This document shows, piece after piece, positions 33 through 34,020 of a DNA stretch of 34,020 bases. The first letter of the stretch is position 1; every line of letters begins with the position of its first letter. Made by a program: the position numbers and the translations under genes. Location: assembly GCA_011316305.1 (NCBI GenBank), contig SAUG01000204.1:1-34020 (forward strand), in the 5' to 3' direction. The stretch comes from Rusavskia elegans. Its lineage: Eukaryota; Ascomycota; Lecanoromycetes; Teloschistales; Teloschistaceae. Below the pieces are notes generated by a model, which had not been told where the DNA came from, made no database searches, and was given only the letters and a program-made list of their open reading frames with translations.

Positions 33-37
<5 letters not shown>

Positions 38-3417: not shown

Positions 3418-3480
3418 GTTTATTTAACTAATTTTTCTAGAAAACCTCTATGGAATCGTGGATATAATAATAAATTAAAA
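3418..3480 (-). pseudogene. gypsy pol 3'-terminal fragment, minus strand
   Basis: On the minus strand this matches the last ~20 codons of the plus-strand pol relic that ends near 3941, including the shared final residues before the stop (LNKRA versus LDKRV). It joins directly to the inverted LTR on its left. On its right it stops abruptly at ~3480, where the plus-strand pol relic begins. It is a minute remnant of a second, oppositely oriented element. Confidence 0.6.
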
Positions 3481-4290: not shown

Positions 4291-4309
4291 CTACCGTTAG
4301 GACTAAAGT

Positions 4310-7946: not shown

Positions 7947-10900
7947 ATGGGATCGACCGTGCCACACAAAGATGCTTGGACGCGGGCGAGAGATCGCTAT
8001 GTTGACGACCTCAACAAAGAAGAGAGAGCATTGTATGAGACTGCCTCGCCAGAGTCAATCTTCTGTGACGCAAGTGCGGCAGAGAAATTTCATACCTCAA
8101 GAAGTAGCGGCGTCAAGATAGCTGATAAGCTGGGACCATTGATTGCTGCGATTGAGCAGTATGGCAAAGCGCTTGATGTCTACGCCAATGCCTCTCCTCT
8201 GATACTGAGCCCACTCTGGGGAAGCATTCGGATCGTCCTTCATCTGGCACGCGAGTTCGGCAAATACTTTGAACACATCGTCGATATGTTTGCCAGGATC
8301 GGTGACCTGCTGCCCAGATTCCGAGTGTATGAGAACCTCTTTCCAAGCCATGAACGTCTTGTCCAGACTCTCTCTGTTGTCTACATTGACATCCTCACTT
8401 TTTGCGCCGAAGCCAAGGCTGTGTTTCGACGTGAGCGGCGTTCATCGAAAATCGACCTCGGCATTCTATTCAAATTGAGCTGGAGGCCTTTCAAACGGCA
8501 GTTCGGTCAACACATTGACAACTTCCGGGCTCACGTAAAGAATGTTGACAAGGAGGTGAACTTGTCTCACATGATTGAAGCATCGGACTCTCGTGCAGTC
8601 GTGCTCGCCAATCAAAGACAACTCGAAAAAGCCAAGAAGGAGAATGCGCATCGACGAATCATCGCAGCAATACCGTCTGTTGACAATGCTGCGAAGCACA
8701 GGAAGCTCCAGAGTCTGAGGCAGGAAGGTACCGGCACCTGGATCTTACGTCACAGCGTTTACCAGGGTTGGTATGATGCAGCATGCCCTTGCACTATTTG
8801 CTGCTTCGGAATACCAGGATGTGGGAAGACCATCTTGACTTCGTCCATTGTTGACAAACTACAGTCTGATGCCGTATCGCAAAAGGCTCGCATCGTCTAC
8901 TACTACTGTGACTATGCTGATCAAAGAACCCTGCAAGCTGAGCGAATCTTGGGAACTCTTTTGAAGCAGTTCTTTGTCAATAGCCATATACCGGATGCGT
9001 TGGAGAGGCAGATCCCCCACGGCTACGGAGAAGACGGATATTCATTAAGTAGCAACGAGCTGATAGAATTGGTATGTCTGGCTATCAAGCAGACGTCGCT
9101 CACCTTTATCATCATCGATGGACTCGACGAGTGTGAAAAAAATACCATCAAGGAGATATCAATCTTGCTAGGTCGCCTACGAAACACTGATGCGTCGATC
9201 GTCAAACTCTTCATCTCTTGCCGACAAGAAGATCAGATGCTGCGATACCTGCAAGGAGTACCAACGATACACGTAAATTCGTCGGCTCTTGAAGATGACA
9301 TCAGGCTTTTTGTGGCTGCATCTGTAAGCTCAAGAATAATGGCAGGTGAGCTGAGGTTACAAAACTCGAACCTGGAAAAGGAGATCACAGACGAGCTCGT
9401 GAACAAAGCCCACGGAATGTTTCTTTGGGTTTTCTTCCAATTAGACGACCTCTGCGAGGCGCCATCGGATGCCTTGATTCGCCGGACGCTTCAGAACCTG
9501 CCGAACGGACTGATCGAAACATACGAAAGAGTCTTGAGCAAAATATGGCGTGATACCATTAAGAGACACATTGTACAGAAAATATTCATGTGGATGATTT
9601 GTGCTCAACGTCCGCTTGGGATTGAAGAATTAAGAGAAGCCGCCGGCTTCGAGCCCAATCAGAAATCGTGGGACTCTGAGATGCTGCCAGACGCTGATCT
9701 CATAATCGAAGCGTAGGTTTACCCCCCTCGAGCAATTTTGTCCGATTTCTACGTCCAACTACATGAAATTCAACCCTTCAATTTCAGAAATGTGGCTGGC
9801 AGATTGCCTGCCGTGCCAGTGCAAGAGATCTATATTTATGCTCTGATTCTCGACTCTGAAAATTCACTGCCGTCAATACATGAATAATTTTGCTGACTCA
9901 AACATTCATAGCTGTAAAGGTCTTGTGATCTGGGACCGAGAAGATGGCATAGTCCGGTTTGCACACCACACTGTCCACCAGTTCCTGCTTTCCGATCCCA
10001 TTGGCGCGCAAGAGAGCAATCTGAAATGCAGCGACCGTGCAGCAGGGCTTTACGTAGGAGAAATGTGCCTGACTTACCTTCTTTTCTCCGATTTCGAAAC
10101 TCAGATCCAGGTTCGTCCAGCCCAAATCCGGACGGAGCAGCCTGTAGATGTATCGCAAACAGGACCAGCGTACTGGATACCAGGGATGCTCGGAGTACGT
10201 GCCTCAAAATTAGAGCGACCTTTTCGGCTCCTTGGGTTAGGCTCGTCATCATCAGCACCAGGTATGGATTATGCCAAACACTTGAGGTCAGCTTCTGGAG
10301 TTAAACCCTCGGCTCCTTCTTCAGCCATTGTTGATAAATATAGTCTTCTGCAGTATATTATTGATCACTGGGTTTTCCACACGAAGGAATTCGATCCTGT
10401 CTCTTCGCTGTCACGAAAGCTACAAGCCCTGGCAATGTTCAAGACTCTGCCTTTCGAGTTTCGCCCGTGGGGACGCAATGAGCACTACGGCCCGTATGGC
10501 TGCGTCTCATGCAAGCCTGTCGGCGCTTCTTCATCCGAAGCGGAACTACTGCCTTTCATGTCGCTACTCCATTACGCTGCGGAAGCTGGCCACTGGTCGT
10601 TGATGCAACCCCTGGTCAGGGAGTACTGTTCGCACGAGACAGAGAACGACAGCAGACAGACATTTCAATGGGATGCAGAAGCTAAAAACTGGCTTCTGGT
10701 AAGGCCGTTACTTGAGAAACATGGCACCCCCAAGGAAAGCAATGATTGGACAATTTGCATAGCTATTCGCAACGGCCATGAACGAATTTTCCAACAATTA
10801 CATTCTAATGTCGGGCCCTTGCCTATTGCTTTACCAGCGATCAATGCCGCTGCGTCCTCCGGCCATGAAATGATGTTCAGAGCATTGCTGGAACCCCTAA

Positions 10901-11916
10901 CAGAGAGATTTTTTCATACCACGGTCTACATCAAAGCATATGCTAATATCACCCTTGCTCTTGCAGCGGCAAACGGGCACCAAGCTATCGTTGAAATACT
11001 ATTGCAACAAGGCGTTCCAGTCGACGAGCAGGTCGATATGTGTGGCGAGACTCCAATTTCGGCAGCAGCAGCCAATGGACACGATCATGTGGTGCGATTC
11101 CTCATCGCCAACGGTGCCCGGCTAACGAGACTCAAAGGCGTGATGCCGCTTCATCGTGCTGCCGAATATGGACACGCCACCGTAGCTAGCACACTTTTGC
11201 ATTTAGCAAAGGTTGGCCCGAAGTATGACGCTCCACAATATACGGGTCCTCATCAGTTACTAAATGGACTAAATCACGAGCGTGAGACGCCGTTGCATCA
11301 AGCGGCCAGGAATGGTCACGCGGACGTTGTGCAAGTCATGTTAGAGCATGCTCCGGCGGCCAAGGAGAGCTGGTTACTAGCCACAACACCAGTCTCGTCA
11401 CACGAACAAACAGCGCTACATTTGGCAGCGGCAAATGGGCATCTCGCCGTTGTCAGACTCCTGTGTGTTCATTTGGACTTCAACATGACCGATGGCAATC
11501 AAGAAACACCTCTTCTGTTGGCTGTAAGGGGAAATCACGGCCCTCTGGTAGAGGCGTTATTGGAGATGAAAGCTGACCCCCGTCGGGTCGATGTTGCTGA
11601 CCGCTTTGTTGCTGACCGCTTTGTTGCTGACCGCTTTGCTCTCGCTCAAGCTATCATCAAAGGCCATCAAGAAGTAGTGCAGATACTTTTGGATCACTGT
11701 CCCAGGTTGGTCCAAGTTGGATTACTTGTCTTGGCAGCAAGGTACGAACATGAAATGATCCTTGAACTTCTGATCAAGACACATAGGAAGGGGGGTATGC
11801 ACGTTTATGCCGACACCACAAAGAAGATCCTTGACGATGCTTTCACAAATGCTCAAGCAGAAAACTTTGAAGAAGCAGCACGAATGTTGGAAAGTTACTG
11901 GAGGCAGGAATTATAG
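7947..11916 (+). CDS. NLR-type protein: helical N-domain, NACHT, ankyrin repeats
   Basis: An intact gene for a fungal NOD-like receptor (STAND NTPase) of 1256 aa, probably cytosolic. Exon 1 is 7947-9712 and exon 2 is 9912-11916. The intron 9713-9911 starts GTAGGT, has a TGCTGAC branch site at 9891 and ends CATAG. Splicing joins ..DLIIEA to CKGLVIW in frame and removes a TAG. Residues ~50-230 form a helical domain like the one Pfam calls DUF7708 (from memory). NACHT follows: P-loop GIPGCGKT at 288-295 and Walker B IIIDGLDECE at 388-397. A winged-helix-like segment lies at ~540-650 (..RFAHHTVHQFL). About eleven ankyrin repeats span ~808 to 1225. The start has a good context (AACATGG). Such proteins sense ligands through the repeats and trigger incompatibility or defence-like responses. 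The ligand is unknown. A 15-base unit is tandemly expanded at 11593-11637. Confidence 0.92.
11593..11637 (+). repeat. 15-bp in-frame tandem repeat, three copies
   Basis: GTTGCTGACCGCTTT is present three times without mismatch, at 11593, 11608 and 11623. Each copy encodes VADRF, so residues ~1150-1164 of the NLR contain three copies of this pentapeptide inside the tenth or so ankyrin repeat. Perfect identity implies a recent slippage expansion that keeps the frame. Confidence 0.95.
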
Positions 11917-16325: not shown

Positions 16326-17612
16326 TCACATCCTCGTACGAGTGGTGAATTGAGACAGATACTCAACGATGTCATCATGGTCCTTCTCGCGAGCGAGATC
16401 GATTGCAAGCTGGCCTTTGGCATTCTGCAGCACTGGATCTGCACCTCGGGCAATGAGTAGTTGAACTACATCGAGATGCCCTTTCGAAGCGGCCACATGG
16501 ATAGGAGCGTTGCACACAGAATAGTGATTTCGCTCCGAGGCGAGGATCGGATTGTCATGATACTCTAGTTTGTTGAGATCTGGAAGCCCTCCCTGTTTCA
16601 GTAGATATTCGAGGATTTCAAGCCGATCGGAAGTTGTTCGATGCGCGGCATGGTGTAAGAGGTAGCCATGCTTGATCGAACTAGGCCCTCCAAAGTCGAA
16701 CAGCAACTTGATGGTATCAAGAGGTGCAAAGAGTACCGCCCAGCTCAGCGGGGTTGTGCTTTCAGCCCAACAACCTCTACTTTCGTGATTGGGATCTGCA
16801 CCACGGTCGAGAAGCCAGCGCGTCATCTCAATGTCGTAAAAGTGGTAATAGGTGCGTGAAAGAGCTGTTGAGGAGAAAGGGGCCAAGCTAAATTCCTGAT
16901 TGATGTCGAAACCATGATCGAGAAACAACTGTAGGAAGCCATAAAGCTTGAGGTCCATAGCCCTTTTGAAGTCATTTTCCCAGAAAGCCCTCTTGACAGG
17001 GAGTCCCCAGTCCACCAGACACAATGCGACGGAGAGATGGCCTCCCTCCATAGCCGAGCGAAAGCAATCATCGAACCAAGATCTCGGAGAGCGGTTCTCC
17101 TTTGGTGCTTGCTCCCATTCTCGTATGATGGCTTTGACTAACGATGTATCTCCGTTAGAGCTCGCACGGACAAGCTTTGACACATCTGATGGAGGAGACG
17201 AGAGCTTCGGTTCGAGGTGGGGTCGCGAAGGTGTCTGGGAAAGGGGGGTAGCATAGATATTAATCTGGTTGTTCAATCCAACATCATCGGCGGCTGTGGC
17301 CTTAAAAGAGTCCATAACAGAGTTGGCGTTTTGCGGATGGGCCACCTGAGAGGCTGAACAAGAGTGTTTCGGACTGTGATGACTGGTGGGCTCGCATATT
17401 ATGTCTCCTGTGCCTGGAGGGATCGACGGAAGAGAAAGGACATTGATATGATCGTCCTCTGTCCACCCCAGGTTCTCGAAAGTGCAGTTGCCTGATGCCA
17501 GAAAGTCCTCGAATTCGTCGGCGGTCATGGAATCCGAGAGCGCCAAAGGCCTCGAATGATTGTCCTTGACAACAGTACCGTCGTGCTGCGTTGGTACATT
17601 TATGTTGAGCAT
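16326..17612 (-). CDS. ankyrin-repeat protein
   Basis: An intact intronless gene for 428 aa. I chose the ATG at 17612 because it has a strong context (ACCATG). The same frame is open to an upstream ATG at 17750, which would add 46 residues of no evident content and run into the shared promoter. Residues 1-145 are polar and Ser/Pro-rich with one acidic-hydrophobic patch (ADEFEDFLAS) and no recognised domain. From ~145 to 425 there are ankyrin repeats, degenerate at first (LVRASSNGDTSLVKAII), clearer later (RWLLDRGADPNHE; PIHVAASKGHLDVVQLLI; LAIDLAREKDHDDIVEYL). There is no signal peptide or membrane segment, so it should be intracellular and act through protein binding. It is transcribed divergently from the gene at 17816. 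The partner is unknown. It differs from the NLR in lacking any NTPase domain. Confidence 0.85.
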   Translation of the reverse strand: MLNINVPTQHDGTVVKDNHSRPLALSDSMTADEFEDFLASGNCTFENLGWTEDDHINVLSLPSIPPGTGDIICEPTSHHSPKHSCSASQVAHPQNANSVMDSFKATAADDVGLNNQINIYATPLSQTPSRPHLEPKLSSPPSDVSKLVRASSNGDTSLVKAIIREWEQAPKENRSPRSWFDDCFRSAMEGGHLSVALCLVDWGLPVKRAFWENDFKRAMDLKLYGFLQLFLDHGFDINQEFSLAPFSSTALSRTYYHFYDIEMTRWLLDRGADPNHESRGCWAESTTPLSWAVLFAPLDTIKLLFDFGGPSSIKHGYLLHHAAHRTTSDRLEILEYLLKQGGLPDLNKLEYHDNPILASERNHYSVCNAPIHVAASKGHLDVVQLLIARGADPVLQNAKGQLAIDLAREKDHDDIVEYLSQFTTRTRM

Positions 17613-17815
17613 GGTGTCAAGTCGTACTCTAAAAGTGAAGGAATTGAAGAGAAAGTTGTCGGGAATGGCGGCTGCGTGGTGACGTTCACGTGACCGTATG
17701 ACGTAATTTTCATGGGTTGGTGGAGAGACCGTTGTAACGTACAGAATCATGCATGCAATTATAATACCTGCAATCAGTTTTTAGTCGGAGCGGTGCCAGG
17801 ACCTCTGTTGGCAGC
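17613..17815. promoter_or_regulatory. shared divergent promoter with bZIP- and bHLH-type sites
   Basis: The 203 bases between two divergently transcribed genes contain TGACGT at 17680, CACGTG at 17687 and TGACGTAA at 17699, all within 27 bases. TGACGT(A/C)A is the ATF/CREB-type bZIP site and CACGTG the E-box bound by bHLH factors. Their clustering suggests joint control of both genes. Binding is inferred from consensus only. Confidence 0.5.
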
Positions 17816-18439: not shown

Positions 18440-19412
18440 AATATAGACATACTCGGCCACCTTTGTTTCATCCAAAAGCTCTAGAGGAACCTCCTTGCTA
18501 ATACTGATTCTCATCTGCCTGAGGCTTGCAATGCTGTGATGCGATTGATGGTTGGCTATCGGACCCAAAATGATATCCAAAACCGTCCAGGACAAGCAGC
18601 TCGAGCAGAACGACCATAACCAAGATGCGACTGAGTATATGTTTAGCCATCCCTCTCTCGATCAAGTCAACTAACTTGGAATCCGGTTGGCTCTCCGGCC
18701 GTCTACAAGGTAAAATCCCAATCATCAATACCCTAAGTTCTTCCTCCTCTTTTCTTCCCTTCCGTTCCTCCTCCACACTCTTTTTTCTTTTTTCCTTATC
18801 TCCATCGCCGTCTATTTCTTCAATGAGTACTAAACGCCGCCTCTCTTAATTTGACTTTAGTATAGCCACCCGCTTCTTCGCTCGTACAGTTTTCTTATTA
18901 CTCCATATCAAGGCACTCGCGGTGTTTTCGCCCAGCTACTTGAAGTCCTTCCCTTCTCTCGTTATATTTATAACGATTTGGCCCAAGACTTCGGGCGCCT
19001 ATTCCTGCCCGCATCGAGAATTACCTCGGAAGTTAATAGTAGTATCGTCGCAATTGTCGATATCCCCAAGTGGTTTCAGTAAGTCTGCGAGACTCTGTAG
19101 ATCTATTTCACATGACCAGAAGCTACATTCCTCCTTAGGGATTTCCACTATGATATCGATGCGCGGACATGATGCGATAGACCACCATGGTCTTCGAGAC
19201 TGCCATTCTTGGATCAAGTCTGACCAAAATACGGTAAGCGATGAGCTCGACAAGTACTATATTCTTTTGTTCGTACAAAAGTATACTGGTATCTCAATTC
19301 ATGTCGAGCAGTGCCCGATTGCAGGATTATAGACCAGCCCCACGATTCTAAATCCTGAAAAGACTGGAAATTTCGAAGAGACACGGGCTGAAGAAAAAAC
19401 AGTTACGCTTCA
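18440..19412. other. gene-poor segment with decayed coding traces
   Basis: No intact gene is supported. On the minus strand at 18999-19253 the sequence gives DIIVEIPKEECSFWSCEIDL and ADLLKPLGDIDNC, patterns that recall F-box-associated fungal proteins. On the plus strand at ~18850-19079 there is an open stretch (FSRYIYNDLAQDFGRLFLPA and more) preceded by a possible acceptor (CTTTAG at 18862) and followed by a GTAAGT-like donor at 19079. The two overlap on opposite strands, so at most one is real. A pyrimidine-rich tract lies at ~18735-18800. Confidence 0.3.
18735..18805 (+). repeat. polypyrimidine tract
   Basis: About 65 bases composed almost only of C and T (CTTCCTCCTCTTTTC-like). On the other strand it reads as GA-rich codons for Glu, Arg and Lys. 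It may be a CT-rich promoter element or a simple repeat. Nothing decides between these. Confidence 0.4.
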
Positions 19413-19661
19413 TCAAGCAGTAGCAACAGCCCCCGCGCGATCATTCGTCTTCCGTTGAATTTTCACCTTCCTAAACTTCAAAATCGAACCATTCCTCAGC
19501 TCCATGTCCGTATAGTGTATCACCGTCCTCCTAAAATCAGGCAAATCCTGCGGAAGCATCCTCCCCAGCATAATATCGAGCGTCAAATACATATCAACCG
19601 CCTTGTACGCAGCCCCCGGTTCCTCAGCTGAGTTGAAGAAGGCGATATTGTACGGTGCGGA
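19413..19661 (-). pseudogene. 3' end of an unknown gene, 5' part missing
   Basis: The minus strand from ~19658 to the TGA at 19413-19415 is open and looks like real coding sequence, with balanced codon use and a globular composition: YNIAFFNSAEEPGAAYKAVD, then MYLTLDIMLGRMLPQDLP, then VIHYTDMELRNGSILKF. About 80 codons survive. Upstream in the same frame a TGA comes at once, with no acceptor AG near it, and then the telomere-like GGGTCAGGGTTAGG (plus strand 19662-19675) and the RIP-degraded block. The gene thus lost its 5' end at this breakpoint. I do not recognise the family. Confidence 0.55.
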
Positions 19662-19675
19662 GGGTCAGGGTTAGG
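19662..19675 (+). repeat. interstitial telomere-like sequence at breakpoint
   Basis: GGGTCAGGGTTAGG lies exactly between the truncated gene on its left and the RIP-degraded subtelomeric unit that begins ~19681. It equals two and a third units of the (TTAGGG)n telomere of this same chromosome end with one T-to-C change and in the same orientation. It is short, so chance cannot be excluded. Confidence 0.5.
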
Positions 19676-19928
19676 CGGGTATCTTATAGGATTTAGTTAA
19701 AATCGGTCGGTCGTACCGTATATTAATATCGTCCTATTAATACTGTTCTAGTATAAAAGTTCTATAGAATCGTCTTATAATAAACTTCTAGCTTTTAGAA
19801 CTAAAATAATTATAATAGTTTATAATATATCTAACTATATAGTTACTATTAGTTTTAATATTTATCTAAAACCTGCTTCCTGCTATTTCCTATTACTACC
19901 GCTAGTATAATTATCGCTTAAGGCGAAG

Positions 19929-19981
19929 GAAGATTTAATTATCTAATTAATTACCGGGAAGATTTAATTATCTAATTAATC
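19929..19981 (+). repeat. 29-bp tandem duplication
   Basis: GAAGATTTAATTATCTAATT plus AAT occurs at 19929 and again at 19958, a 29-base spacing, with the first 23 bases identical. It is a minor local duplication within the degraded block. Confidence 0.8.
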
Positions 19982-22900
19982 TAATAGTAACCTATATAGT
20001 TATCTATATATATACGCGTTAAGAAAATTTAAAGATAGTAATTAATTAGCTAAAGGTTTTACTCTTTATTTTTCTATAAAATAGTAGGTTCTACGCGAAT
20101 TTCCTATTTCTATCTTTACTTCTTCTATTCTACTTTTACTAGCTCCTTTTTAAGTTTAGCGAAGCTATTACTAGTCTACTTAACCTTTAATATAGGTTAT
20201 AGATAATTCCCTACTACTATTAAATAGGAACGTAATATTATATAATAAAGATAGTAGTATATAAAATAGTAGGCCGTTTATTAATAATCTAAAACTCTAG
20301 GTACTACCTAGTTCTATTTTTTATTACTATAAAGTCTACTATAGGCCTTTCTTCTACTATAGTACTATTAACGATCTATCTAGGCGGCTATTTCTTATTT
20401 AAATAGATAAAAAAGCCCGCTAGCTCTATAATAAGTCTCTAATAAAAGTTAAAATATACTAGTTTATAATCCGCTTTATATACCGGGGGGGACCTATTAT
20501 TCCTAATAGAATACTAGTTCCCTGCTTTTACTACCTAATTTAGATATCGAATATTAAAGTAATAGGTTTTCCTACTTCCTATTCGTTATTTTATATTTAT
20601 AATTAAAACCTAACTTATATACTTCCTAGTAATATTAGTAACAGTCCTTTTCTATTATATAATAATAGCCGATTTTTTATATCCTTATATCGCGTAAGTT
20701 AGATACTTATTCCTTTTTTCTTTCTATCGGAACTATCTAATAATACTTTTTACTAGTTAACTTTTTTTATAATTTCGAGGTCTAGTACTAAGTATTTCTA
20801 CCGGAACGTAATACGTCTATCTAACTATCTAAAATACCTTAAAGTAGGTCTAAAAAGTACTAGATAGAGGAAAAAAAAAAAGAAGCGGCTAAAGGTTATA
20901 AAATAATATTTAAAATAAAGAAAGCCTTAAATTAAGAATTTTAAGTAGTTCCGGCTACTACCTTTACTCTTTCTATTCCTTCTACCGAGGCCCCGAAAGT
21001 ATCTATTAGTATATACTACGGTACTAAATAGATTTTTATAGTTTTAGGACTATATCGTACCCCGTTTAAATTCTATATTAATTCTAGAATATAACTCTAG
21101 AGCTATATATTAAAGCTAATAGCTTAATTAGAACCTTTTTCTAGCGATAGATTAGTCCGGTATAGAAAGCCCTAGGGGCTTATTCTACCTATAATAGAAC
21201 TATAATCTAAACCTTCGATTTCGCTATCTATTTCTATTTTTCTTTTTATTATTATCCTATTCTATAGAATCGAAGATCGCTTCCTTAATAATAATATACT
21301 TTACTAGGTTAATACTCTATACCGACTACTAAGCGATAAATATCCTTTATTTCGTTTTACCGGTAATATATTAATTTTTACCTTTCCTATTAAAATTCCC
21401 TACTTAATAAATATAGCCCGATATAGAGGAGGACGTTTATATAAAAGGTTATAAACTATATCTCCGGTATAAATTAAAGATTCTATTTTTATAAACGGTA
21501 TTCGAACCCTATCTATTTCCGGTAGTAATTTAGGTACTAAATAGATTTTTTATATACCTTTAGATAATAGACCTAGACTTCTACTATAGCTATCTAATAC
21601 CTTACCGCGGTAATAACTATAGCCTATAGAATTATTACTACTATAATAACTACGGTTAGTACCGTCTATATTACCGCCGCTATAACTATAGCCTATAGAG
21701 TTTAAATAGGCTAATAAAATCCTTATAACGGCTTTTCGATACTTATATAATTATAGTAAGCTTTCTTTCTATTTCTATTTATTATTAGATTACTAATAGA
21801 TATTCTAGCTAGCTATTACCCCGACTTTCTATTTAATATTCGGAGCTTCGGCGAACTCGCTATATATTAGAAATTATTTAGTTCCTAGAAAGCTTCGTCT
21901 ACTCTATTCCTCCTACCTTTATACTATTTAATAATATTATAGTATAATAATCCTATTTACCCGGATTTTTATAATATTAATTAGCGCGCTTTCTTCGCTA
22001 GGGAGTCTATTCTACTTTCTTTTAATATTAGCCGTAGTAAAAAGGCTTTACTTAAATAACTTATAATAAAAGAATAAAACGACCTTTAGATCCGTACTAC
22101 TACTAATATCGATAATATTATTTTTACTCCTATAATTCTAGCGGTCTATTTCTATTTATTTTACTAGTATTTCTATCCGCTTTTCTATTAATATATTATA
22201 TAGAACCCGCGCTTTACGATCTATAGCTATAGTATTTATAAGCTTAAATAACTATATATTAGCTTTAGTTCTACCGACCGAAGGCGAAGCTTTAATATCT
22301 ATATATAATTCTCTAATATAATATAAATAGAATAGGATACTACCTATATAGATTATAATCTTTAATTAGGTTAAATAGATTTAATTATCTTTCCTACTAT
22401 TCGATTAACCTACCCTAAATATATATCCGCCTACTATTTTTAAAGTTTTAAAGCCGCCTATACTAGTATATCTACTAACTAGGAGCTATATTTCTTTAGA
22501 TTATTAGTTCCTATAAATATCTACTATTCTATCCCGGCTAACTACCTCGACCCTTTATAGGTAGAAGTAATAAGGCGCGCTAATACTATATAGGAGTTTA
22601 AAGGGCTTATCCTCGTCCTATCGGCCTATAACTTAAAAGCTAATATTATATATAATTCGCTATAGGAAGCCCGAGGTACTATAGAGTAGATACTAGCTTA
22701 CTAATATAATATATCTAAGAAGATCGTTTTTTCTAATAAGTCCTACCTCGATTTCGGCTTTGACGATTTTATTAAAACTTATAGTAGAGCTCCCTATTCT
22801 AGTATTACCCTGTTTTATAATATATACTGCCTCTAAGCTTAAAAGGATTATTTCTAGAATCTAGATAAAAGGCCTATAGGCTTTAAAGTATCGACCTATC

Positions 22901-25510
22901 TATTCTATTTTATTCGAAACCTCGGCTCTATATCTATAGAGCTAATTATATCTAACTTTTTCTATTATAAAAGTCTTATAGCTTACTATAAATCCTATAA
23001 TACTATTAAAGATCTTTTAGTTATACTATTTAAAGATATCTATCCTTTTAGTAGTTACGAATTTAAAGCCCTCGCTTTTAAATAAACTAAATAGGATAAT
23101 TAGGCCGCGAATAACCTAATTTATAATAGGTAATACGCTGTAGCGCGCTTCTAATAATATACTAATAGCTTTAAAGATTATCTAGATCTACCTTTTAGCT
23201 AACCTTTTTCCTATAATTACTAGGTTTAAGCCTTCTTATATATTAAAGGCCGTCTTAACGAATACTTTAAGTAGATATATAAAAAGGATATCTATTATAG
23301 AGTATAAAATAAGTACCGGGTTAGCTTTACTCTTTTCCGAATATTAAATTTAAATTAATAGCCGGATATAGCTTTTATTCGGCTATTATATCTCCTATCT
23401 AATATATTATAGAACCCTTTATTTAGGCCGGGTCTAATATAGCCCTAGAACTACGTTTCTAACTTTCCTATAGAGTTCTATTAACTATATACCCTTATCT
23501 CTATCCGGGATATTATCGCCTTTATCTCGATCTTTCTAAATATTTAACTTCTCCTTTTTAAAGTATTAGCGGTATAACCCGTACCGGTAGCCGGTCTATT
23601 CCTAGTTTTATAGGAAAAATAAAGAACTAATAGGAATATACTTTATATCGCTATTAATATTATACGTCTTACTATAGGGGGAACTAAACCGGTATAATAT
23701 CCTTCCTTTATAAGAAAGGAATAGTAGACGGAATAGGTACGTATAGTCTCTATTTTAGAAGAGGATAATATAAAAATAGATACCGACCCTATTTATATAA
23801 CTAGACTTAATTTATAATACTAAACGATAATAGACCGGTATAGTATTATCTTTTATCTTCCGGATATAATCCTTTAATAGGGTATTTTTTCTTTCGATAT
23901 TCGAATTATTTACTAATTAGGTATTAGAAACGGGCTTTAGTAGAAATTTAAGGGTATACGTAATATTACTAGGATTTATATAAAGTAAAACCGGTTCCTT
24001 ACTTTTTTCTAAACCCGCCTTCGCTCCTAGGTAGATAAAATTTAGATAGTACCTTCCTTTAATTATACTGCCTTACTTTAGCGTTATTACTATAAATCTA
24101 TTTAATTTACTATATACCTTATATTTATCGACTATAATAAATATATTATCTATAAACTAGTTAACCGGATAGTAGATAATATAGTCGATACCGAATAGTA
24201 GGCCGAGGAAATTATAAGAGTACCTAAACTATAAACACTAAAGTAATAGTTCTATATACTTTAGTTTAATAAGGAATAAAACTACTAGTATAGAATTCTT
24301 ATAGTCTAGGTCCGGAAAGAGACTCGAAAGCTATATCTAGAATGCTTAATTAAATAGGAATAGTTAGGCCTTAAGCTATTAATTTTCCCTGCTATATAAT
24401 AATTTCTAGGAAGGATATTTTCTCGTATTATCCTCGCTCGCTAGTCTTCTAAATCTAATAATTCCTACTTTAGCTAGTATTTTAAATCCGGTTTATAAAA
24501 AGATCGGCTATAGGCCCTTTTCGCGTAGGATAACTATAAAGATTACTAGGAACGGAAGTAGGAGTATATATCTTTCTAAGTCTTAATCCGTAAACTTTAT
24601 AAATACTTTATTAATACCGGAAGTACTAAATATAGTTTAACTTTTTTATAATAGATATTTTATATTATTTCTACTATCCTATATACTATTTTTTAGTTTA
24701 ACTATAACGATCTAGCTATAATAATCTCCGCGAAATAAGTATATAATATAGGGAGAGCCTAAGAAATCCGAAGCTTTTCTAGAATAGCTTAGACCGGATA
24801 GTACTTAGCTAGGATTCTAGTTAACTAGGCTAATAATATAGAACGTATATAATATAGTAATAGAAAGAGCTAGAAAAAACTTAGTAATATTATTAGAACC
24901 GGCAGTCTAGAAACTACCTTATAGAATATCCTAGGATAGGTCTTCCTATTTAAGCCGTATCTATTTAATAATTATAGTACCCTTAATATACTAGATCTAA
25001 TATTTTCCGATTATTTCTATATTTTCTACTAGAAACTAGATTAGCTAGCTATTATAGTAGAGGTTTAAAAGGCGAGGTTTAATAATAACGATAATCCAGC
25101 CGATAATTTTAAACTTTTTAACTATAACGGAAGTAAGAATTAGACCTAGCTTAGTTATAATAGATTACTAGATTATAGTCCGCGGTAAATAACTAGTGCT
25201 AATATTAATAATATAATTCTAGAACTATACCTATTAATAATATAATCCTAGAACTATATCCTTTAGATCTAGCGGTTTACTAAATACTCCGACGTAAGAA
25301 GATCTAACTAGGTTAAAAGAAAATAACCTTTACTAATAGAGAGAAGTATTAAAATAGGTTACCTATAGATATAGGTATAAAGTATTTTTATATTATCCTA
25401 CTATTTATCTATTTAACTAATAACTACAGATTTTATAAATTCGGAAACCGATACTTTTTACTAGATATATATAGACTATAGTTTATTCCGGATAAGCTTT
25501 TCTTTTAATT

Positions 25511-25584
25511 CTATAAAAGCTGGATATAATCCTAGAATAACTAAAGCCTTAATACTATAAAGGCTGGATATAATCCTAGAATAA
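25511..25584 (+). repeat. 44-bp tandem duplication
   Basis: The 30 bases starting CTATAAAAGCTGGATATAAT at 25511 return at 25555 with one transition, a spacing of 44. This lies between the unidentified coding relic and the helicase relic. Confidence 0.8.
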
Positions 25585-28500
25585 TAAAAAAGCGCTAGTC
25601 CTAATATATTTACTATATATTATATATTTAATATACTTTTTTAGTAAAATAGTTTATTTTTATTTTATTCTACTATCTGTTTTCGCTTTAGAAATAAAAC
25701 CTATTAAATATCTACGCGTTACTCGCGTCTATTAGCGTATTATTCGGCTATTATTAATATATAAATACTCTTTATTTTCTATCTTACTTTTCTTCTTTTT
25801 ATATATTATATTTAGTACTACCTACTTATATATTTCTGTTTTTTTTTCGATTATAACCTTATTAGTATATTCTTCTATTTTTTAATATAGTTCTAGAATT
25901 ACGATCTGCTCTATAATATTAGATATAAACTATATTTTATAGCTTCCGAGTACTCGAATTACTATATTTAATACTAACCCTATTACGGCTTTCGGTTAAT
26001 TTACTTTAATTTAGTTATAGCGAGTTATTATCCTAGGATTATATCTAGCTTTTATTACTTATTATTCTAGGATTACGTCTAGCCCTAATTATACTAATTT
26101 ATTCCGATAGTCTATATTTTCGACCCCTAAAACTATATAGTCCTTTTCCTTTTTCTAGGTACGATTACCCTACAGTCTCTAAAATATCCTTTTTAAGGTA
26201 TCTAGTTTATACTAGAATATAGTCCTAGATCTATATAGTATTATTAAAGGAAAAGAAAAGAATACGGACTATATAAGCTAGGCTATTAATACCTGCTAGA
26301 CCTAGGAAAACTACTACTTTAAATCTATTAATAAACGTAAGCCTAGCTTTAGCCGGACTACTACTACCTAAAGATCTACTATAGTTTTTCGACGGTATTT
26401 AGGTTATCCCTTCTAAAGAAGGCGGACTAAATCTCGTAGGTAATAATATTTCGCTATACGGGTATCTCGGCCTCGCTAATACTAGCGAACTAAGGGAGCT
26501 CTATAGCTATTTAAGCGTACTACTAGATAGACTTACTACTATCGTTAAAGAAGGATACTAAAAAGAGTAAATAGGAAAGGAGCTGGCGAAGATATAGATT
26601 AAAGTTAGTAAACTATTTAGCTATATTTCCTAGTAGAACGAGATCGATATTAGCGGTTTTAATCCTACTTCCTATATATAGTTATTACCTATTAAAGGGA
26701 GTATTTTTTATATAATCTATCGACCTTTCCTATACTAGATTAAGATACTATATAATATCCTAACGAGTAGCCGAAGCCTAGATATTTTAATACGTATTCC
26801 CGAAGGCAATCCGGTTTACCGGAATAAAAAGTACTTCTACTAGGCTTACGCCTCCGAAAATTAGTATCGAGTCTATTACCTAGTTAAAAACTAGTTTAAA
26901 AAGTCGACTAAAAAGGCGGTACGTTTAGGAAGTTATATAGGTACCTCTAAATTCTAGACTAATAAAGCTATACTAGTATATTACTATACTACTCCGGATA
27001 CTAATCCCTATACATCCGATTCTAAGCTAGAAAAACCCCCGGTACTAACCTTTTTTAAACCTATAGAATTTAATTAGATCGAAGATCTAGACTAGATATA
27101 TAAAATTAAAGAGAAACTAAAAGCTAATTATATATTACCGGATATTAATTATAAAGTAGTAGAAAAAAAACTACTAGCTTAATTTAAAAAAAAGATCGAT
27201 AAACTAGTCTCGGTTTATACTATATATAAATTAAATAATAGCCGGTAGAATCCCTATCCGCCCCTATTATATACCGAATAAATAGCTACGATTAAAAGTT
27301 TATACGATTTTAAGCGTATACTAGTCTAGTTCCCCCCTAATACGATAGTCGAATAGATAGTTATAATAACTTAAAAGAAGGAAGCTAGGGTAAAAACTAC
27401 CTAAAAGGACTAGTAAGAATTAACGGAGTAAGTATTTACCTATAAAGTAGCCTATTTAGCTAATATTATAGTAGAAACCGATATAGTAGTAGACGACTAA
27501 TAAGCCTAATAAACAGTCGAAAATATCTAAAAGTATATTAGTACTATTAATACTATCCTTCCTTTATATAAAGAGTCCTATAAGGCTTTATAGTTAGATC
27601 CCGAACTACCCCGCGTCCTAGATATCTATCCGGCTAATTATTTCTACTTTAATAAATATCCTAGAGCAATATAATATTTTAAACTATATTAGATATAATT
27701 TCTATATTAGGTATTAATTATAGAGTCTATATTTAGGGGTCTGCTATTAGCCGACGAAATAGGTTTAGAAAAAACTATTTAGGCGCTCTATTTAGTAGTA
27801 TAGTATACTATTAAATACGGTAGTAAACTACTAAACTTTCTATTATTCTATTTCTACTAATATAGCTTTAGCCGATATAAAAATAGTAATAGCGGGCCTA
27901 GGCTTTATAAAACCTAAACCCGCCCCTTTATTTAAAACTAAGGAACTAACGTTAACGTTAATCTAGGACTATATTAATACCCCTTCGTCTATTATAAAGG
28001 CGCCGCCGTTAATATTAACCTAGGACTATATCTAATTTATAGAATTTAAAAATTAAAAACTAACCGAATCGTATACGGATAAGTTAGCTTTTATAACCCT
28101 CCCTTATAATCTAGTTAATACGGATTCGGATACTTTAGATTTAAACTCGGTATCTAATTCCTTTTTTAACTATCGAAGATTACTTATACTATAGTATAAA
28201 GGTATACTATAATATAAGAAATTACCTTGCCGTATCTCTACTATAGATCTAAATAAGAAGGTTTTAGTACTTACGGAAATATACGATAAATATAAATATA
28301 AATCTAATTTAGTTATCGCCCCTTTATCTAGGTTTATTATATAGAAATAGGCGAAAGCTAACTTTCCCGCTTTAAAAATTAGATTTTAGTAAAGAAATAA
28401 AGCGTCGGCTAAATTTAAAGATCGCCCTAATATCTTTAGAACTACTAACCTAGCCTTTATAAAGTTTCTAAATAATATCTCTAATATTCTATAAGTACTT

Positions 28501-28647
28501 TTTATAGTAGTAGTTATAACGTATACTATTTTATATCTAAAATCTATTTATCTAGAAGGTCCTATAGAGCGGCGCCGAGCTAAATAAGCTAAGAAAATTA
28601 AATAAGCTAAAGATACTAAAATAAATATTACTAAAAATACTAATAAA

Positions 28648-29030
28648 GAAGTTACCTAGAACGCTAATAAAAATATCGACGCGGACGATTATTAAATAGA
28701 TATTAAAAGGGATATTAAAAAAGAAAGTACTATCTTTACCGATAAAGAAGTTACCTAGAATACTAATAAAAATATCGATAAAGATAATTATCGAATAGAT
28801 ATTAAAAGAGATATTAAAAAAGAAGGTACTATCCTTACTAATAAAGAAGTTACCTAGAATACTAATAAGAACGTCGATAAAGATAACTATAGAATAGATA
28901 TTAAAGAGGATATCGAAAAAGAAAGTACTATCTTTACCGAAAAAGAAGTCGCTAATAATACTAAATAAATTATCGATAAAGATAACTATAAAATAAATAA
29001 CGAAGAGGAAATAGAAAATATTAGTATATA
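28648..29030 (+). repeat. 99-bp tandem repeats inside the helicase relic
   Basis: The segment starting GAAGTTACCTAGAA begins at 28648, 28747 and 28846, and a diverged fourth copy starts GAAGTC at 28945, each exactly 99 bases apart. One unit is 33 codons, rich in charged residues (NKNIDKDNY.IDIKRDIKKE). The units are in the same frame as helicase motif II, which follows at 29074. A stop sits at the same place in the first three units, as expected if a Trp or Gln codon was hit by RIP in each. Confidence 0.9.
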
Positions 29031-30779
29031 TTAATAAAGCTGGATTCCTAGGATATTTAGCCGAGTTATCTGCGACGAAGTATAGAAAATTAAAGATTTA
29101 ATAACCCGGTTTAACCGAGCCTTACGGTTATTATAGCCTCGTTCAGTAATAATATTAATAGGTACCCCGATATTAAATACGGTAGAAAATCTAAACGGCC
29201 TTTTATAGGCTATATAGAATCCTATTTAGGAGTCGGATAATATACTATATTATAGTATTAATAAATATTCCGAAGCTTGAAAGGAGATAGAATTATACTA
29301 GTAGAAAGGTAAATAGTTCTAGAACTATATTAAATACTTTTACTAGCTTTTAAATCTAGTTATCTTTACCTGATTTATTCGGATAAAAGATTTCTAGAAC
29401 TAAATAGAAGTCGATACTATATATAGTATTATTCCTCCTATTCTAATACTATTAAGTCTACGACGCTATAGAAATAGTATTATTAAAGTTAATAGGAAGG
29501 ATATTAGAATTAGTAAGTCTATATTTAATAGTAAGTCGTTAACCGTCGAATTAGGTTTTATATAAAATAATAGTAATTAATAGGTCTTTATTTATTAGAA
29601 AGTAAATCCCCGCGCCGCTTTATTTCCTTTAACTTTACTCTAACTAGTATCTTATATATTACTTTCTACCGGTTTTACTAGCGGCTTCGGTAACTAGTTA
29701 GAAAATAAAACCGGCCGATATAATTACGGGATTTATAGGCGCTTTTACTATTTAGCTTTAAATCCCGCGCTTAAAACCCTTTATTTATAGGTCGGGTAGT
29801 CTAAACTTACTATTTCCGCCTTCGATAAAACCTACTATAAATATAATAACTATAAAGTAAATTTCTACTTATAATATACCCGACTATATTTATTATTTCC
29901 GAACTATTATTATTATAGGGATTTAGCGAAATATATATATATATACGCTCCGAAGCTTTATACGCTAGCCGGTTTTATCTATTAAATCTATAACGTTAAT
30001 TAATATAAACTTCTAATATTCTATAACTAGCCGACTATTTAATAGAATACGGAAATATTACTATATACGCTCGGTATTAAAGTTCTCTCGATATAGTCTG
30101 CCTATAGTACGATAGTAAAGGACAAGTACGTAGAAGCCTTTATTAAAAAAGATAATATTAAAGAGGTTTAGGCTATATATATATTAACTAGAATTATAGC
30201 GACTGCCGTAAATCTATAGGGGGGTAGCTATTCTAACGTACTTTTTTTAGATATCTTTAATAATATTTAGATTTTAATTTAAACCGGCGCTCGTATTATA
30301 AAGATAGGCTAAAAATTCCTCTATAATTTCTATATCCTTATAGTAGATAGTATCTATAACTAGGCTATCTAAATAAACTAGGCCTTAAAAATACGCCCGA
30401 TTATCGCTAGATAGGTAGGGATTATATATCCGACCTATAAAGAATATATAAATTTCCGGGAATTATATTCTAGATTTAAAAGAGAATATAATACTATTAC
30501 TACTCTAAGGATTATAGCGATTATAGCTATAAAACTCTATACTAACCTTTTTAGCTAGCGTTTTTCCCGCGAAAATTAAAATAATCTAGAAAATTATACT
30601 ATAAAAAATATCCTTCTTACTAAAAAAGAGTTTTATAAATATTATAATATCTCCCTACTTAATCCTCGCTTTAAATATATTAGAAAACCTTTTAAAGAAT
30701 ATAGTAAGCCTTCGAAATACTCTTTCTAAACTTTAACTATAGATAATCCTTTTTTATCTAATTTTATTAAAAATCTATA

Positions 30780-31320
30780 GTTTCTATAGCGTAGTAAAAG
30801 TTATTCCTCTATTCCTCGCTCCCCTAATACTAAAAGATAAAAATTAAGCGAATTAAAGGTAAATTCTAGTAAATATAGTTTTATATAGTCCTAGGACTAC
30901 GTCGATACTAATCTTCTTTCTAGAAGACGAATTATTAGATAATATAGCTTTAAATCCTATATAGCCGGGAAGGCTCGATTTAAATCGCTCCCCTATTCCT
31001 TATTTTCCTAATATTAAGAAATAAAAATTAAGCGAGTCGATATTAAATTTAGGTAAATATAGTTTTTATATAGTTCTAGGACTATATCGATACTAATCTT
31101 TTCTTTAGATAATAAATTATCCTATATTATAGCTATAGATTCTGCGTAGTTTCTATAGTATAGTAAAAGTTACTCCTTTATTCTTTATAAGCCCGACGTT
31201 AAAAGATAAAAATTAAGCGAATCGATTAAAAACTTTAGTAAATATAGTTTTATATAGTCTTAGGACTACGTTAATATTAATCTTCTTTCTAGAATTTAAA
31301 ATATCCGATAATATAGTTCC
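30780..31320 (+). repeat. ~184-bp repeats, three copies, near the helicase 3' end
   Basis: The block AATTAAGCGA followed by AAATATAGTTTT and a TAG(T/C)C(C/T)TAGGACTA motif recurs with anchors at 30842, 31026 and 31210, exactly 184 bases apart. Divergence is mostly C/T. The copies lie in or just past the C-terminal coding part of the helicase relic. As 184 is not a multiple of three, either the frame changes between copies or they are noncoding. Confidence 0.85.
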
Positions 31321-31600
31321 GAATCCTATAAAAATAGTAGTCCTTACTTTTTTAAACCCCGAATCTAAAAAATATCTACGGTCTCTTTAGTTTTTAAATA
31401 CTTTAAAGGACCTTTAGTTTTAACTAGTTCTAGCCCGCTCTTAGTTTTAACCGGCTTTAGCCCTAACCTCTAGGATAGTAAGATTAAAGAAGATATATAA
31501 TAGAAAATCTAGATAGTTTATTTCTAAAACGGATTTATAGGATAAAATAGTCCTAGGACTATATAAAGTTCCCCTATCGGTATTAATATCCTAAAATTCC

Positions 31601-33953
31601 GAATAATATAATATTTTCCCTTTCTCTATCTACCTAATAGTTTTAAAAGTAGATATTTAAAATTATATATTTTAGCTCTTAATTAGTTATTCTAATACTT
31701 ACTATAATTAGTATACCTAATACTATTATACTACTGGTTATTATATATATATTATACTAGTTATTTTCTGTCTACTTTATACTATTATTTTTATCCCTTT
31801 TAGTAGATATTCCGTATTTATCTACTCTACGCCGGTACCTTTATATTAACTCTAACTACTAATAAATATATAGTCGATATAGGTTATATAATACTTAATT
31901 AGTAAATAGCGAATTATTATTTAAAGTTTAGCCGGTAGCAGTACCTACTATCCTCTTTTTACTATTAATTTTACCCTCTTAAAATATATCGCTACTATTA
32001 ATTTCTTATCTATTCTAGCGATTTCGTTTATAATACTAGTAAGTAATATAGAACGGCTATATAAGCTAACTATATCGAAATAGATAAAAGCGGTATATTA
32101 GAAAGCCGGTATAACTCTATATATTTCTATAGCAGAGTAACGTCGTATTAATAGGGCTATCGAATTAGAGGAATAGACCGATAAAATCTATACCGCCGAA
32201 GAATAGAAAAAATAGAATTATAAAAAGAAATAAATTAAGGAGTAATAGAAAAGAAAAAACCGCTAATATATAGGACTACCGGTTATAATAGTCTCTAAGC
32301 TAGCGGCTAGTTAATCTAGTCTAAGCTAGTAGTATAAAGGGAATATATAAAATAAAGAAAGTAAGATAGTAAATAGGCCGAATACCTTTCTATTAAAAAA
32401 TATAACCGGTAGTTATAATACTATTATCGACCTTTTTAATAATAAAACGGATACGGATAATAGTAATAGGGTTAAACTTATTTCGATAAATATAAGTAAG
32501 TCTATAGAGCTACTAGCTTAATATAAAGACTTTTAAAAGGTAGATTTACTAAACGAGTTTCCGGTAGAAGGCTTTCCCGGACCGCTATTATTATTATTCG
32601 ACTCTTTACTATTATTTTAAAAGCTATTTAGGCGTTATAGTAGTAGTAGATATAGTTTAATACTATCTCCTATACTCGCCCCTAGTTTAAACTTATAGTA
32701 GAGAGTTAGCGGTAAACTCGTCTAGGTCCCTACTTTATTTCTCTATAAATTCTATTTTCCTTCCTTTCGCCGTACTAGGTAAAGGACGCTTAACCGGCGA
32801 TCTAGCTTTACTTTTCGGCGCCTAGAGACGTATAGAAGTATACTAGAACCTAATAAGAATTATATCTAGGTAAATAATCTTAATCTACTTATTAGTAATA
32901 GCTAAATCGACCGGAAGTTAGCCGATATATCGTTTCTAGTACTTAGATATTATAGTAGTAGTAGACGTTACTTAACGCCGTTCCCGGTATTTACTTCTAG
33001 TTTAAACTTATAGTAGAAAGTTAGTAGTAAATTTATCTAGGTCCCTGCTTCGTTTCCTTATAAATTCTATCTTCCTTCCTTTTACCGTACCGGGTAAAGG
33101 ACGCCTAACCGGTAATCTAGCTTTATTTTTTAGTATTTAAAGACGTATAGAAATCTACTAGAACCTAATAAAAATTATATCTAGATAAATAATCTTAATC
33201 TACTTATTAGTAATAGCTAAATTAATCGGAAGTTAGCTAATACTTTATCCCCGATAAATATAGAAGCTCTAGCTACCGTTTTTCTATTTCCGCCTATAAT
33301 AACGGATATTACTTTACTAATTTAAAGGAAGGTTAGACTAGTCGAAAGCGCTTTATAAATAGTAGTAGCTTTTACTATATAAAATTGCCTATAGTTATTA
33401 TTACCGATATAGTACTTTTTTTATTATAGATAGTAGCCAGGATTTTATTAATACTAATAGGCGAATTCTAGGAGTTATATTTTTATTATATATAAATCTA
33501 AATATCTATAGATACCGAGGATTTAATAGTCGCTAGAATAAAAGTATTTATTAAGATACCGACTAATAGTAATAACCGCCGGTAATTTACTTCTATTTCC
33601 TTCTATTATAAATTTTTATTCTTCTAACACTCTTCTTATTATTTATATTATATATCCAGATATAACGATTATAGCTATCTAAACCCCTACCTTATACTAA
33701 ATTAAATAACTATTATAGTAATATTTCCTTAATTACCTATTATTTTCTATCTTTACTAAAGCTTCTACTATATATTTATCTAAATTACTAGTTTAGTCGT
33801 TAGGCTCGACCCTATTAATTTATCTCTAATTACTATACTTATTAGCGTTATTATTATTAAATCCGTTTCTATTAATATTAATACTTTAGTACTTATCTAC
33901 TTTCTTCCTTTTTCTATCTACTGCTTTACTATCTACTTTATAGTACTTCTAGA
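31601..33953. repeat. telomere-associated repeat region
   Basis: RIP-degraded DNA between the helicase relic and the telomere. A tandem 315-bp duplication lies at 32635-33250. At ~32110-32290 the plus strand has a stretch encoding a Lys/Glu-rich helix-like peptide broken by stops, of unknown origin. No intact gene is present. Position and composition fit a telomere-associated sequence. Confidence 0.6.
32635..33250 (+). repeat. 315-bp tandem duplication
   Basis: Copy 1 starts at 32635 (TTATAGTAGTAGTAGA) and copy 2 at 32950. Shared anchors such as TAGTTTAAACTTATAGTA (32683 and 32998) are exactly 315 bases apart. The copies stay alignable to their ends with mainly C/T and G/A differences, so the duplication preceded at least some of the RIP. 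Confidence 0.9.
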
Positions 33954-34020
33954 TAGGGTTAGGGTTAGGGTTAGGGGTTAGGGTTAGGGTTAGGGTTAGG
34001 GTTAGGGTTAGGGTTAGGGT
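33954..34020 (+). repeat. telomere repeat (TTAGGG)n
   Basis: About eleven units of TTAGGG run to the end of the window, with one variant TTAGGGG near 33971-33977. The G-rich strand runs 5' to 3' toward the window end, as it must at a right chromosome end. The telomere abuts the degraded repeat at 33953 without any unique sequence between. Confidence 0.98.

Follow-up and report, generated by a model that had tools for sequence, protein, structure and literature searches.

Helicase genes adjoin telomeres in yeasts and fungi, for reasons that are unsettled. A stretch of 34,020 nucleotides from the ascomycete Rusavskia elegans (contig SAUG01000204.1, positions 1 to 34,020; the window, or W) ends in a telomere and carries the remains of a gene that an earlier note had read as a SNF2-type helicase in the place usually held by a RecQ-like one, in a multicopy unit damaged by repeat-induced mutation (RIP) and possibly self-spreading. 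The locus thus raises the question of which family of DNA motor this relic belongs to and how the unit came to lie at the chromosome end. Other contigs of the same genome are designated by C-numbers, such as C44 and C98.

Identity of the telomere-facing relic

A SNF2-family ATPase relic was found on the + strand of the window, pointing toward the telomere. With three read-through pieces joined, the PF00176 profile matched at 36.4 bits (E 4e-9), above its curated cut-off of 24.9; single read-through frames scored just below that value (20.3 bits, E 3.3e-4; 23.3 bits, E 4e-5). In a genome-wide profile search, window positions 28936-29235 reached 25.5 bits with their frame neighbours and 24.4 bits alone against the same cut-off. 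Among PDB chains the best solved relative was RAD5 (E 4.6e-6 in all), with a match that rests on the motif I and motif II-III stretches, each weak alone; phmmer with a single frame-1 piece gave no PDB match. The relic resembles Rad5-type SNF2 ATPases in these two stretches and differs from them in two inserts, one of about 150 amino acids that follows motif I and one of 33-codon repeats ahead of motif II.

The + strand has readable motifs I, Ia, II, III, V and VI in this order. The NH2-terminal part (26202-27819, frame 0, by frame reading and PF00176) contains motif I at 27741-27776. The SNF2 domain requires a frame change at about 27820-27865, where a 46-nt intron-like stretch on the + strand (GTAGTA...CTACTAATATAG) is probably an intron that would link frame 0 to frame 1. 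Frame 1 was then read through the insert and motif Ia (27866-28605, with the motif from 28303 on), and repeat analysis placed 3.6 units of an in-frame 99-bp repeat at 28643-28999, between motifs Ia and II. Motifs II (29074-29097), III (29155-29169), V (30205-30225) and VI (30280-30315) follow in frame 1 within 29038-30500, a part with PF00176 and RAD5 matches; AVNLxGG (V) and GARIIKIGxK (VI) of the second RecA domain are by-eye readings. Tandem repeats of 185 bp (2.7 units, 30823-31316, + strand) possibly lie in the COOH-terminal region. The telomere begins about 3.6 kb beyond motif VI and 2.35 kb beyond position 31600, the limit given in the earlier note. The matches of most copies of the unit break or overlap at the 99-bp repeats.

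A copy-by-copy profile search (E <= 1) detected PF00176 on the motif II-III piece in eight of 10 copies and on the motif I piece in three of nine (best E 0.016), on the motif Ia piece in none of nine, and Helicase_C in one of 10 (E 0.0085). No RING domain was seen in the relic, although RIP converts codons for Cys and His to Tyr codons. Neither a single copy nor a 10-copy profile (about 8000 candidates scored each) yielded SNF2 homologues at E <= 0.01 in a large protein set, probably because low-complexity words created by RIP crowd out candidates. Stop counts and a codon model gave too weak a signal to set gene limits. Weak profile matches to DUF7842 (E 0.14), DRE2_N, Filo_VP24 (one of nine copies, E 0.063) and DUF2417 (one of nine, E 0.99) were dismissed.

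The RecQ model TIGR00614 matched 30 times across the genome and not once inside the unit, and we therefore rejected a RecQ identity for it. The OrsD/DUF3505-type domain PF12013 had no match, but it had none in the control genomes either. Profile searches and the RAD5 match bore out the reading of a SNF2-family relic that is oriented toward the telomere. The claim of SNF2 instead of RecQ holds for the unit but perhaps not for the genome, given that weak, sub-cut-off RecQ-model matches with stops were present near two telomeres (C150 and C81), where the unit was not found.

A second coding relic

The suspicion of a second gene at 22400-25300 was also well founded. On the + strand, 22300-25179 forms a single frame of 960 codons broken by stop codons only, and its relatives, two unannotated proteins of which one is from the lichen fungus Flavoplaca citrina, mark it by sequence as a conserved protein-coding relic (gene 2). 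No known domain was found in it. Further weak matches in the profile searches, to TNFR_16_TM, DUF2909 and Glyco_hydro_17, were dismissed. A PDB search with gene 2 returned a single match (E 1.2) that was not kept; the gene 2-like protein P0001 gave no PDB match and had no relatives in viral contigs. For AlphaFold we aligned six of 13 full-length copies (0 or 3 gap columns), leaving out one copy with 3 gap columns that crosses a locus border and six copies with 1, 2, 4 or 5 gap columns; the prediction from this six-row alignment had a pLDDT of 30 and was not used for a fold search.

An element with an exact inner terminus

Both relics lie within an element of 14-15 kb, which we term U. Genome DNA matches and junctions place the RIP-mutated window copy at 19647-33953 on the + strand, with an exact inner end at 19647 and an outer end cut by a directly joined TTAGGG telomere (33954-34020). 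Given that other copies extend about 582 bp beyond 33953, the telomere cuts U in the window and does not mark its natural end.

The inner terminus, ATTGTACGGTGCGGAGGGTCAGGGTTAGGCGGGT (19647-19680, + strand), is defined by 33 genome matches and 14 junctions read, and includes, by eye, three imperfect TTAGGG-like hexamers (GGAGGG TCAGGG TTAGGC, 19659-19676). The inner end ATTGTACGG... was matched 33 times with at most two mismatches, and its reversed control 0 times. All 33 inner ends face a nearby contig end, at a distance of at most about 34 kb. Twenty-four of them are on 17 telomere-bearing contigs, on every one of which the telomere is the end faced; the other nine are spread over six contigs and point to whichever contig end is nearer. 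U was present on 18 of at least 30 telomere-bearing ends, and its DNA matches are all in the same orientation, save matches shorter than 80 bases. Apart from a 648-bp fragment inside C213, it was found only near contig ends; copy counts are lower bounds, as the genome search scores best candidates only. Mapping thus confirmed a multicopy unit at chromosome ends, and the exact inner end, facing outward there, is new here.

The 14 inner junctions read are all at different sites, nine in other sequence, three inside an older U and two inside a copy of a repeat, R, located after an older U. In three cases, two flanks have a repeat in common and are cut at different places within it. TTAGGG was found at none of the 14 joins, and they have no common poly-T or poly-A tract, a run of T being present at one (C33 inner). 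Such an exact terminus at many unrelated sites suggests that U is self-spreading, as had been conjectured.

The RIP index (CpA+TpG)/(ApC+GpT) was 0-0.10 in 20-34 kb of the window and 1.19-1.48 in 8-19 kb. At the window junction, host sequence with 12.4 CA+TG per 100 bases ends and RIPped sequence begins within 50 bases. Only two of the 14 inner flanks (window and C74) are clearly un-RIPped, so that most joined sites were already repeats. The window and C44 copies differ by 1770 transitions and 15 transversions in 14,312 columns, and U copies were nearly identical before RIP. All copies examined are damaged. The index and the genome copies together upheld the view that the unit was multicopy and RIPped.

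Outer ends, arrays and joining enzymes

Twelve outer ends were read with a direct TTAGGG cap, at 12 different points from 2.7 to 14.3 kb into U. An evenness test of cut points (p 0.74; 16 values, at least four of which are estimates or have non-U sequence) was not counted as evidence. In three cases a cut U copy adjoins a further U at the exact inner end of the latter. TTAGGG is absent from all three U|U joins and from both U-R|U joins, and these five joins inside U or R share at most one base. In the arrays C45, C114 and C115, the outer copy could be traced as far as the telomere, and the remainder of the copy to which it is joined does not come after it. Five contigs (C120, C196, C115, C58 and C44) have a common outer boundary at about 34535, and four of them (C120, C115, C58 and C44) have an identical U|R join. 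In C98, U and the telomere are about 5 kb apart. No inverted copy of ATTGTACGG was apparent on inspection of the outer boundary of U, and outer ends are either lost or held in common, which would hide any target duplication.

R is short and has a U-like pattern, with 13 matches that begin within query 568-592 and whose ends range from 700 to 1700. Its terminus in C98, ATTGTAGTGGG, has ATTGTA in common with U. R is also present at inner sites, twice in the opposite direction (C205:372205 and C150:39829), and some of its matches stop at gaps and not at cuts (C33:33682-34773 probably represents a single copy).

A Pfam scan of read-through frames on both strands of U, together with profiles of its copies, revealed no candidate for the joining enzyme, whether integrase, transposase, Rep or reverse transcriptase; the scan covered one of the three + frames at 31700-31880 and 32718-33953, and RIP lowers its sensitivity. 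For RVT families, the scanned frames of U and its extension, on either strand, had no match at E <= 1, again at a sensitivity lowered by RIP. The window had no Rfam match at gathering score.

Comparison with known chromosome-end elements

Long helicase units at chromosome ends, in one orientation, liken U to the fungal telomere-linked RecQ-like elements, as far as the cited accounts describe them: DHX_G198 of Colletotrichum, those of Mycosphaerella graminicola, UTASa of Ustilago and TLH of Magnaporthe (PMC5576322; PMC4522978; PMC10532341). The helicase-bearing end units of C. higginsianum are given as 11-18 kb (PMC5576322), and the telomere-linked helicase copies of M. graminicola as truncated and low in GC (PMC5576322; PMC4522978; PMC10532341). 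In the same accounts, the helicase of those fungi is RecQ-like, with DUF3505 in Colletotrichum, whereas U encodes a SNF2 protein and the unknown protein of gene 2; the Colletotrichum copies are single, full length and contain TTAGGG motifs, in contrast to the exact inner terminus and cut tandem arrays of U.

The pattern of U is one of attachment and erosion, as in terminal retroelements. Unlike them, U showed no reverse transcriptase in its scanned frames, and its genes point away from the fixed end. MoTeR elements are telomere-associated non-LTR retrotransposons of filamentous fungi, from which U differs in that no reverse transcriptase was found in its scanned frames. The same difference separates it from FoTeR, described as another such retrotransposon (PMC12857005).

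How U may have spread

We think it probable that U is a mobile element of chromosome ends whose inner terminus was attached to broken or eroded ends, and which was later itself eroded and re-capped. The inner terminus (ATTGTACGG...) would have been joined blunt, with little or no shared sequence, to such an end, and the remainder of U would have become the new chromosome end. Its outer part would later have been lost through erosion or breakage, and the eroded end healed either by direct TTAGGG addition or by the joining of a further U (or R) through its own exact inner end; repeated attachment would give head-to-tail terminal arrays. U once carried at least two genes, for a SNF2-family motor, which may move on or remodel DNA at the broken end, and for a conserved protein of unknown fold, which may act at the ATTGTA terminus. 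The joining would be the work of these proteins, and a new copy would arise by DNA copying or by reverse transcription. RIP would have destroyed the copies afterwards. In favour of this reading are the 33 inner ends, all of which face a contig end, the different sites of the 14 junctions and of the 12 telomere caps, the near absence of shared bases at the five joins inside U or R, the sharp onset of RIP at the window junction, the few transversions between W and C44, and the similar pattern of R. Counting against it are the negative scan for a joining enzyme, the damage to the copies examined, the mostly RIPped inner flanks, the U|R join common to four contigs, the 5 kb beyond U in C98, the inner and reversed sites of R, the fragment inside C213 and the low pLDDT of the gene 2 model.

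Another reading, which we consider unlikely, makes U a passive duplicon of the subtelomere, comparable to yeast Y' or RecQ TLH blocks. Homologous recombination or break-induced replication between chromosome ends would then have spread it, with its genes as passengers. Y' elements spread by recombination, and their units can have telomere repeats between them. Saccharomyces Y' is likewise a helicase-coding unit that adjoins telomeres and can be tandem, in the cited summary (PMC4522978), and such a location, the near-identical blocks common to chromosome ends and the one U|R join on four contigs, as copying to a chromosome end or ectopic recombination would give, fit a duplicon. U, however, joins blunt and at unrelated sites: its inner edge is exact at 14 of them with neither homology before the edge nor telomere repeats at the join, flanks with a common repeat are cut at different places, and the five joins inside U or R do not pass through telomere repeats.

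It is improbable that U is a terminon-like retroelement, or the outer part of one, whose fixed inner end corresponds to the 3' end of a minus-strand RNA that was primed on chromosome ends, with 5' truncation outward and a reverse transcriptase lost to RIP or acting in trans. U does show the one-way head-to-tail arrays, fixed inner end, truncated outer end and telomere capping of HeT-A/TART/TAHRE, GilT/GilM, Athena and Terminons, the last being cut by telomere repeats, as these are portrayed in the cited passages (PMC5537684, PMC6431247), and its inner end has telomere-like hexamers. The same passages give terminal retroelements a reverse transcriptase and poly-A or telomere repeats at the fixed end (PMC5537684, PMC6431247), and neither was found in U: RVT was not detected in the scanned frames of either strand though SNF2 was at equal damage, and neither kind of tract is common to the joins. 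Both U genes also run away from the fixed end, and the Rfam search of the window was negative.

Insertion of an ordinary DNA transposon at subtelomeres, with outer ends removed by terminal deletions, would explain an exact inner terminus at many sites and the common outer boundary at about 34535 but is very improbable, since random insertion would give both orientations rather than one on 17 of 17 telomere-bearing contigs, all 33 inner ends lie within about 34 kb of the contig end faced, and the outer copies in C45, C114 and C115 lack the rest of the joined copy after them.

Implications

A second motor family occupies the telomere niche together with a conserved partner gene, which suggests that selection there is for DNA motors and not for RecQ in particular. 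An exact inner terminus that was probably joined to broken ends offers a handle on chromosome-end rescue. It also enables a concrete search, for units that have an ATTGTA terminus and carry both SNF2 and gene 2, at the chromosome ends of related fungi; the hosts to expect are perhaps lichen fungi, judged solely by the Flavoplaca relative of gene 2. A bolder proposal, which we advance with considerable doubt, is that U and R belong to a class of chromosome-end elements free of reverse transcriptase, whose own proteins, a SNF2 motor and a member of a new family, attach the ATTGTA terminus to broken ends. If so, a selfish element would also serve to patch broken ends, in a fungus whose telomeres are normal.

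SNF2-family relic and gene 2

The genome searched comprised 44,163,098 bases in 217 contigs, with the window corresponding to contig C116, which ends in approximately 11 TTAGGG repeats. Base composition was normal between 8 and 19 kb of the window, and between approximately 20 kb and the telomere GC content was 24–33% with CpA and TpG nearly absent, a pattern that indicates RIP. This RIP-mutated sequence is a copy of the chromosome-end element U (19647–33953, plus strand). A further RIPped stretch (1–7400, 10–30% GC) lies at the opposite end of the contig, and its similarity to the AT-rich region of repeats R and S was weak and of low complexity, with none stronger. Two open frames at 7941–11916, less than 12 kb from U, contain by eye a P-loop (GIPGCGKT) and ankyrin-like repeats and look like a fungal NLR-type gene; ankyrin-like repeats were also seen by eye on the minus strand at 16326–17780.

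The earlier note had recognized SNF2-like motifs in U, and translation recovered motifs I, Ia, II, III, V and VI in order. The relic runs in frame 0 to approximately 27819 and in frame 1 from approximately 27866, with an intron-like stretch of 46 nt (27820–27865), as read from the sequence, that would link the two. Single frames scored under the cut-off for the Pfam model SNF2-rel_dom. In a genome-wide search the window passed it (25.5 bits counting neighbours), the other 32 of the 33 matches listed falling outside U, and the joined pieces scored far over it (36.4 bits, E 4e-9). The top PDB match of the joined pieces was RAD5 (E 4.6e-6, made of two weak stretches), as was that of a ten-copy profile (E 0.0031); the single frame-1 piece had no PDB match. 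The RecQ model gave 30 genome matches and none in U, in agreement with the proposal that this motor is not of the RecQ type.

The coding relic previously noted at 22400–25300 (gene 2) resolved into a single 960-codon frame at 22300–25179 interrupted only by stops. A single 3-bp indel distinguishes four of the six aligned gene 2 copies from the window, the alignment omitting seven further full-length copies, six of them for other indels. Two unannotated relatives are P0001, with 811 aa at 44% identity, and the Flavoplaca citrina protein P0002, with 609 aa at 43%; neither had a Pfam match over cut-off, and P0001 had none in PDB. P0001 matched this genome 36 times, always with in-frame stops; the least damaged match was on C11 (61% identity). 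The U copy there (L025, C11:67–6026) has 42% GC, versus approximately 28% in the window, and is much less RIPped, so RIP exposure or age varies among U copies.

Copies of U at chromosome ends

DNA searches with three parts of U gave matches on many contigs at 78–91% identity, apart from hits of <80 bases, and copy counts from these searches are lower bounds. TTAGGG repeats mark no fewer than 30 contig ends, namely 28 that have nine perfect copies of the repeat, C115 and the window. U was found on 18 of them (C10, C11, C12, C22, C26, C45, C74, C90, C93, C94, C98, C99, C114, C115, C116, C120, C196 and C205), bearing out the suggestion of a multicopy, end-located unit. It was not found on 12 telomere-bearing contigs (C2, C13, C27, C56, C62, C67, C81, C109, C112, C135, C150 and C160), the last 1.5 kb being compared directly for seven; the C13 end carries R, and those of C2, C27 and C67 match the R/S region weakly, in AT-rich sequence.

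The inner terminus of U yielded 33 genome matches and none in the control. Twenty-four lie on 17 of the 18 telomere-bearing contigs with U (C90 excepted), facing the telomere in each, and nine (on C15, C33, C44, C58, C92 and C100) face the nearer contig end. Of all 33, the most distant lies approximately 34 kb from the end it faces (C58). A single U piece was seen away from an end (648 bp, C213 96623–97270 of 270014). With R copies it occupies C213:68950–97270, a region distant from both contig ends that may once have been a chromosome end, before a fusion.

Inner and outer ends

At all 14 junctions read, unrelated sequence precedes the join and U follows from ATTGTACGG (ATTATACGG post-RIP). 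Nine join other sequence; three join an older, cut U, at window-equivalent positions 21431 (C114), 28448 (C45) and 31881 (C33); and two join an R copy behind older U (C58, 702 bases past 33953; C115, 1010). These five U/R-internal joins share at most one base, and in three flank pairs with common sequence the cut points within it differ. The host side of the window junction is un-RIPped (12.4 CA+TG per 100 bases), with U RIPped beyond its first 50 bases; C74 is similar, and the remaining 12 flanks are RIPped or nearly so. The first 34 bases of U hold three imperfect telomere-like hexamers. A minus-strand open frame of approximately 75 codons at 19400–19646 (AFFNSAEEPGAAYKAVDMYLTL..., by eye) reaches the junction; it resembles a host gene that lost its start at this point.

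TTAGGG directly caps U at 12 different points in 12 of the copies read (window, C10, C11, C12, C22, C26, C45, C74, C90, C93, C114 and C115), with roughly 15 unmatched bases intervening in C22. In C120, C115, C58 and C44, U extends 582 bases beyond 33953 and meets the AT-rich repeat R at an identical point, and in C196 it ends at that point with other sequence beyond. Because five contigs stop there, this is probably the outer boundary, for a U length of approximately 14.9 kb. R starts with an exact end of its own (ATTGTAGTGGG in C98); at least 13 matches (among the best 40 of 389 candidates) begin at it and end at query 700–1700, some of these ends being gaps inside a copy. In C98, R follows U cut at approximately 28075 and approximately 5 kb separate U from the telomere, so direct capping is not universal. 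AT-rich R/S chains, several with exact inner starts, occupy C33:28790–35110, C12:13695–15209 and C213:68950–71205; C12 and C213 have two consecutive R copies.

Age and mode of spread

The window and C44 copies differ at 1785 bases, 1770 of them transitions, and other pairs compared show a like excess (2 to 61 transversions per pair). Because the differences are almost all transitions, the copies were nearly identical at the time of RIP, and their spread was recent relative to it.

The exact inner end at unrelated sites, the single direction and the capped, cut outer ends favour an end-attaching element, copies of which would have been added to chromosome ends and then eroded, the cut ends being capped by a telomere or by another exact inner end. 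Terminal retrotransposition, as in known terminal retroelements (PMC6431247, PMC5537684), would also give the exact edge and uniform direction but is less favoured, given that no reverse transcriptase was detected in the frames of U scanned on both strands and that the genes of U run in the opposite direction. Ordinary transposon insertion, likewise less favoured, would give the exact edge without explaining why the copies face one way. Homologous recombination between chromosome ends, again less favoured, accounts for block copying (the common U/R join) and leaves the exact edge at unrelated sites unexplained. Given these shortfalls, we favour end attachment.

Helicase types at chromosome ends

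The subtelomeric helicase elements described in the portions of the literature consulted are RecQ-like (PMC5576322, PMC4522978, PMC10532341), those of Colletotrichum without the full set of RecQ motifs (PMC5576322). Inserted segments of Fusarium graminearum include an SNF2 helicase-like protein (PMC11152077), and an SNF2-related helicase gene is mentioned elsewhere (PMC5870968), the parts consulted describing no telomere element in either case. Among titles and abstract openings, with subscription journals mostly outside coverage, we found no report of an SNF2-type telomere element. At two of the ends lacking a detected U, matches to the RecQ model, which also picks up other helicases, face the telomere: C150:15866–16357 (E 1e-7, nine stops) and C81:277377–277526 (E 9e-4, three stops), both far below cut-off. 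Given these weak matches, SNF2 and RecQ motor types may both have used the chromosome-end niche.
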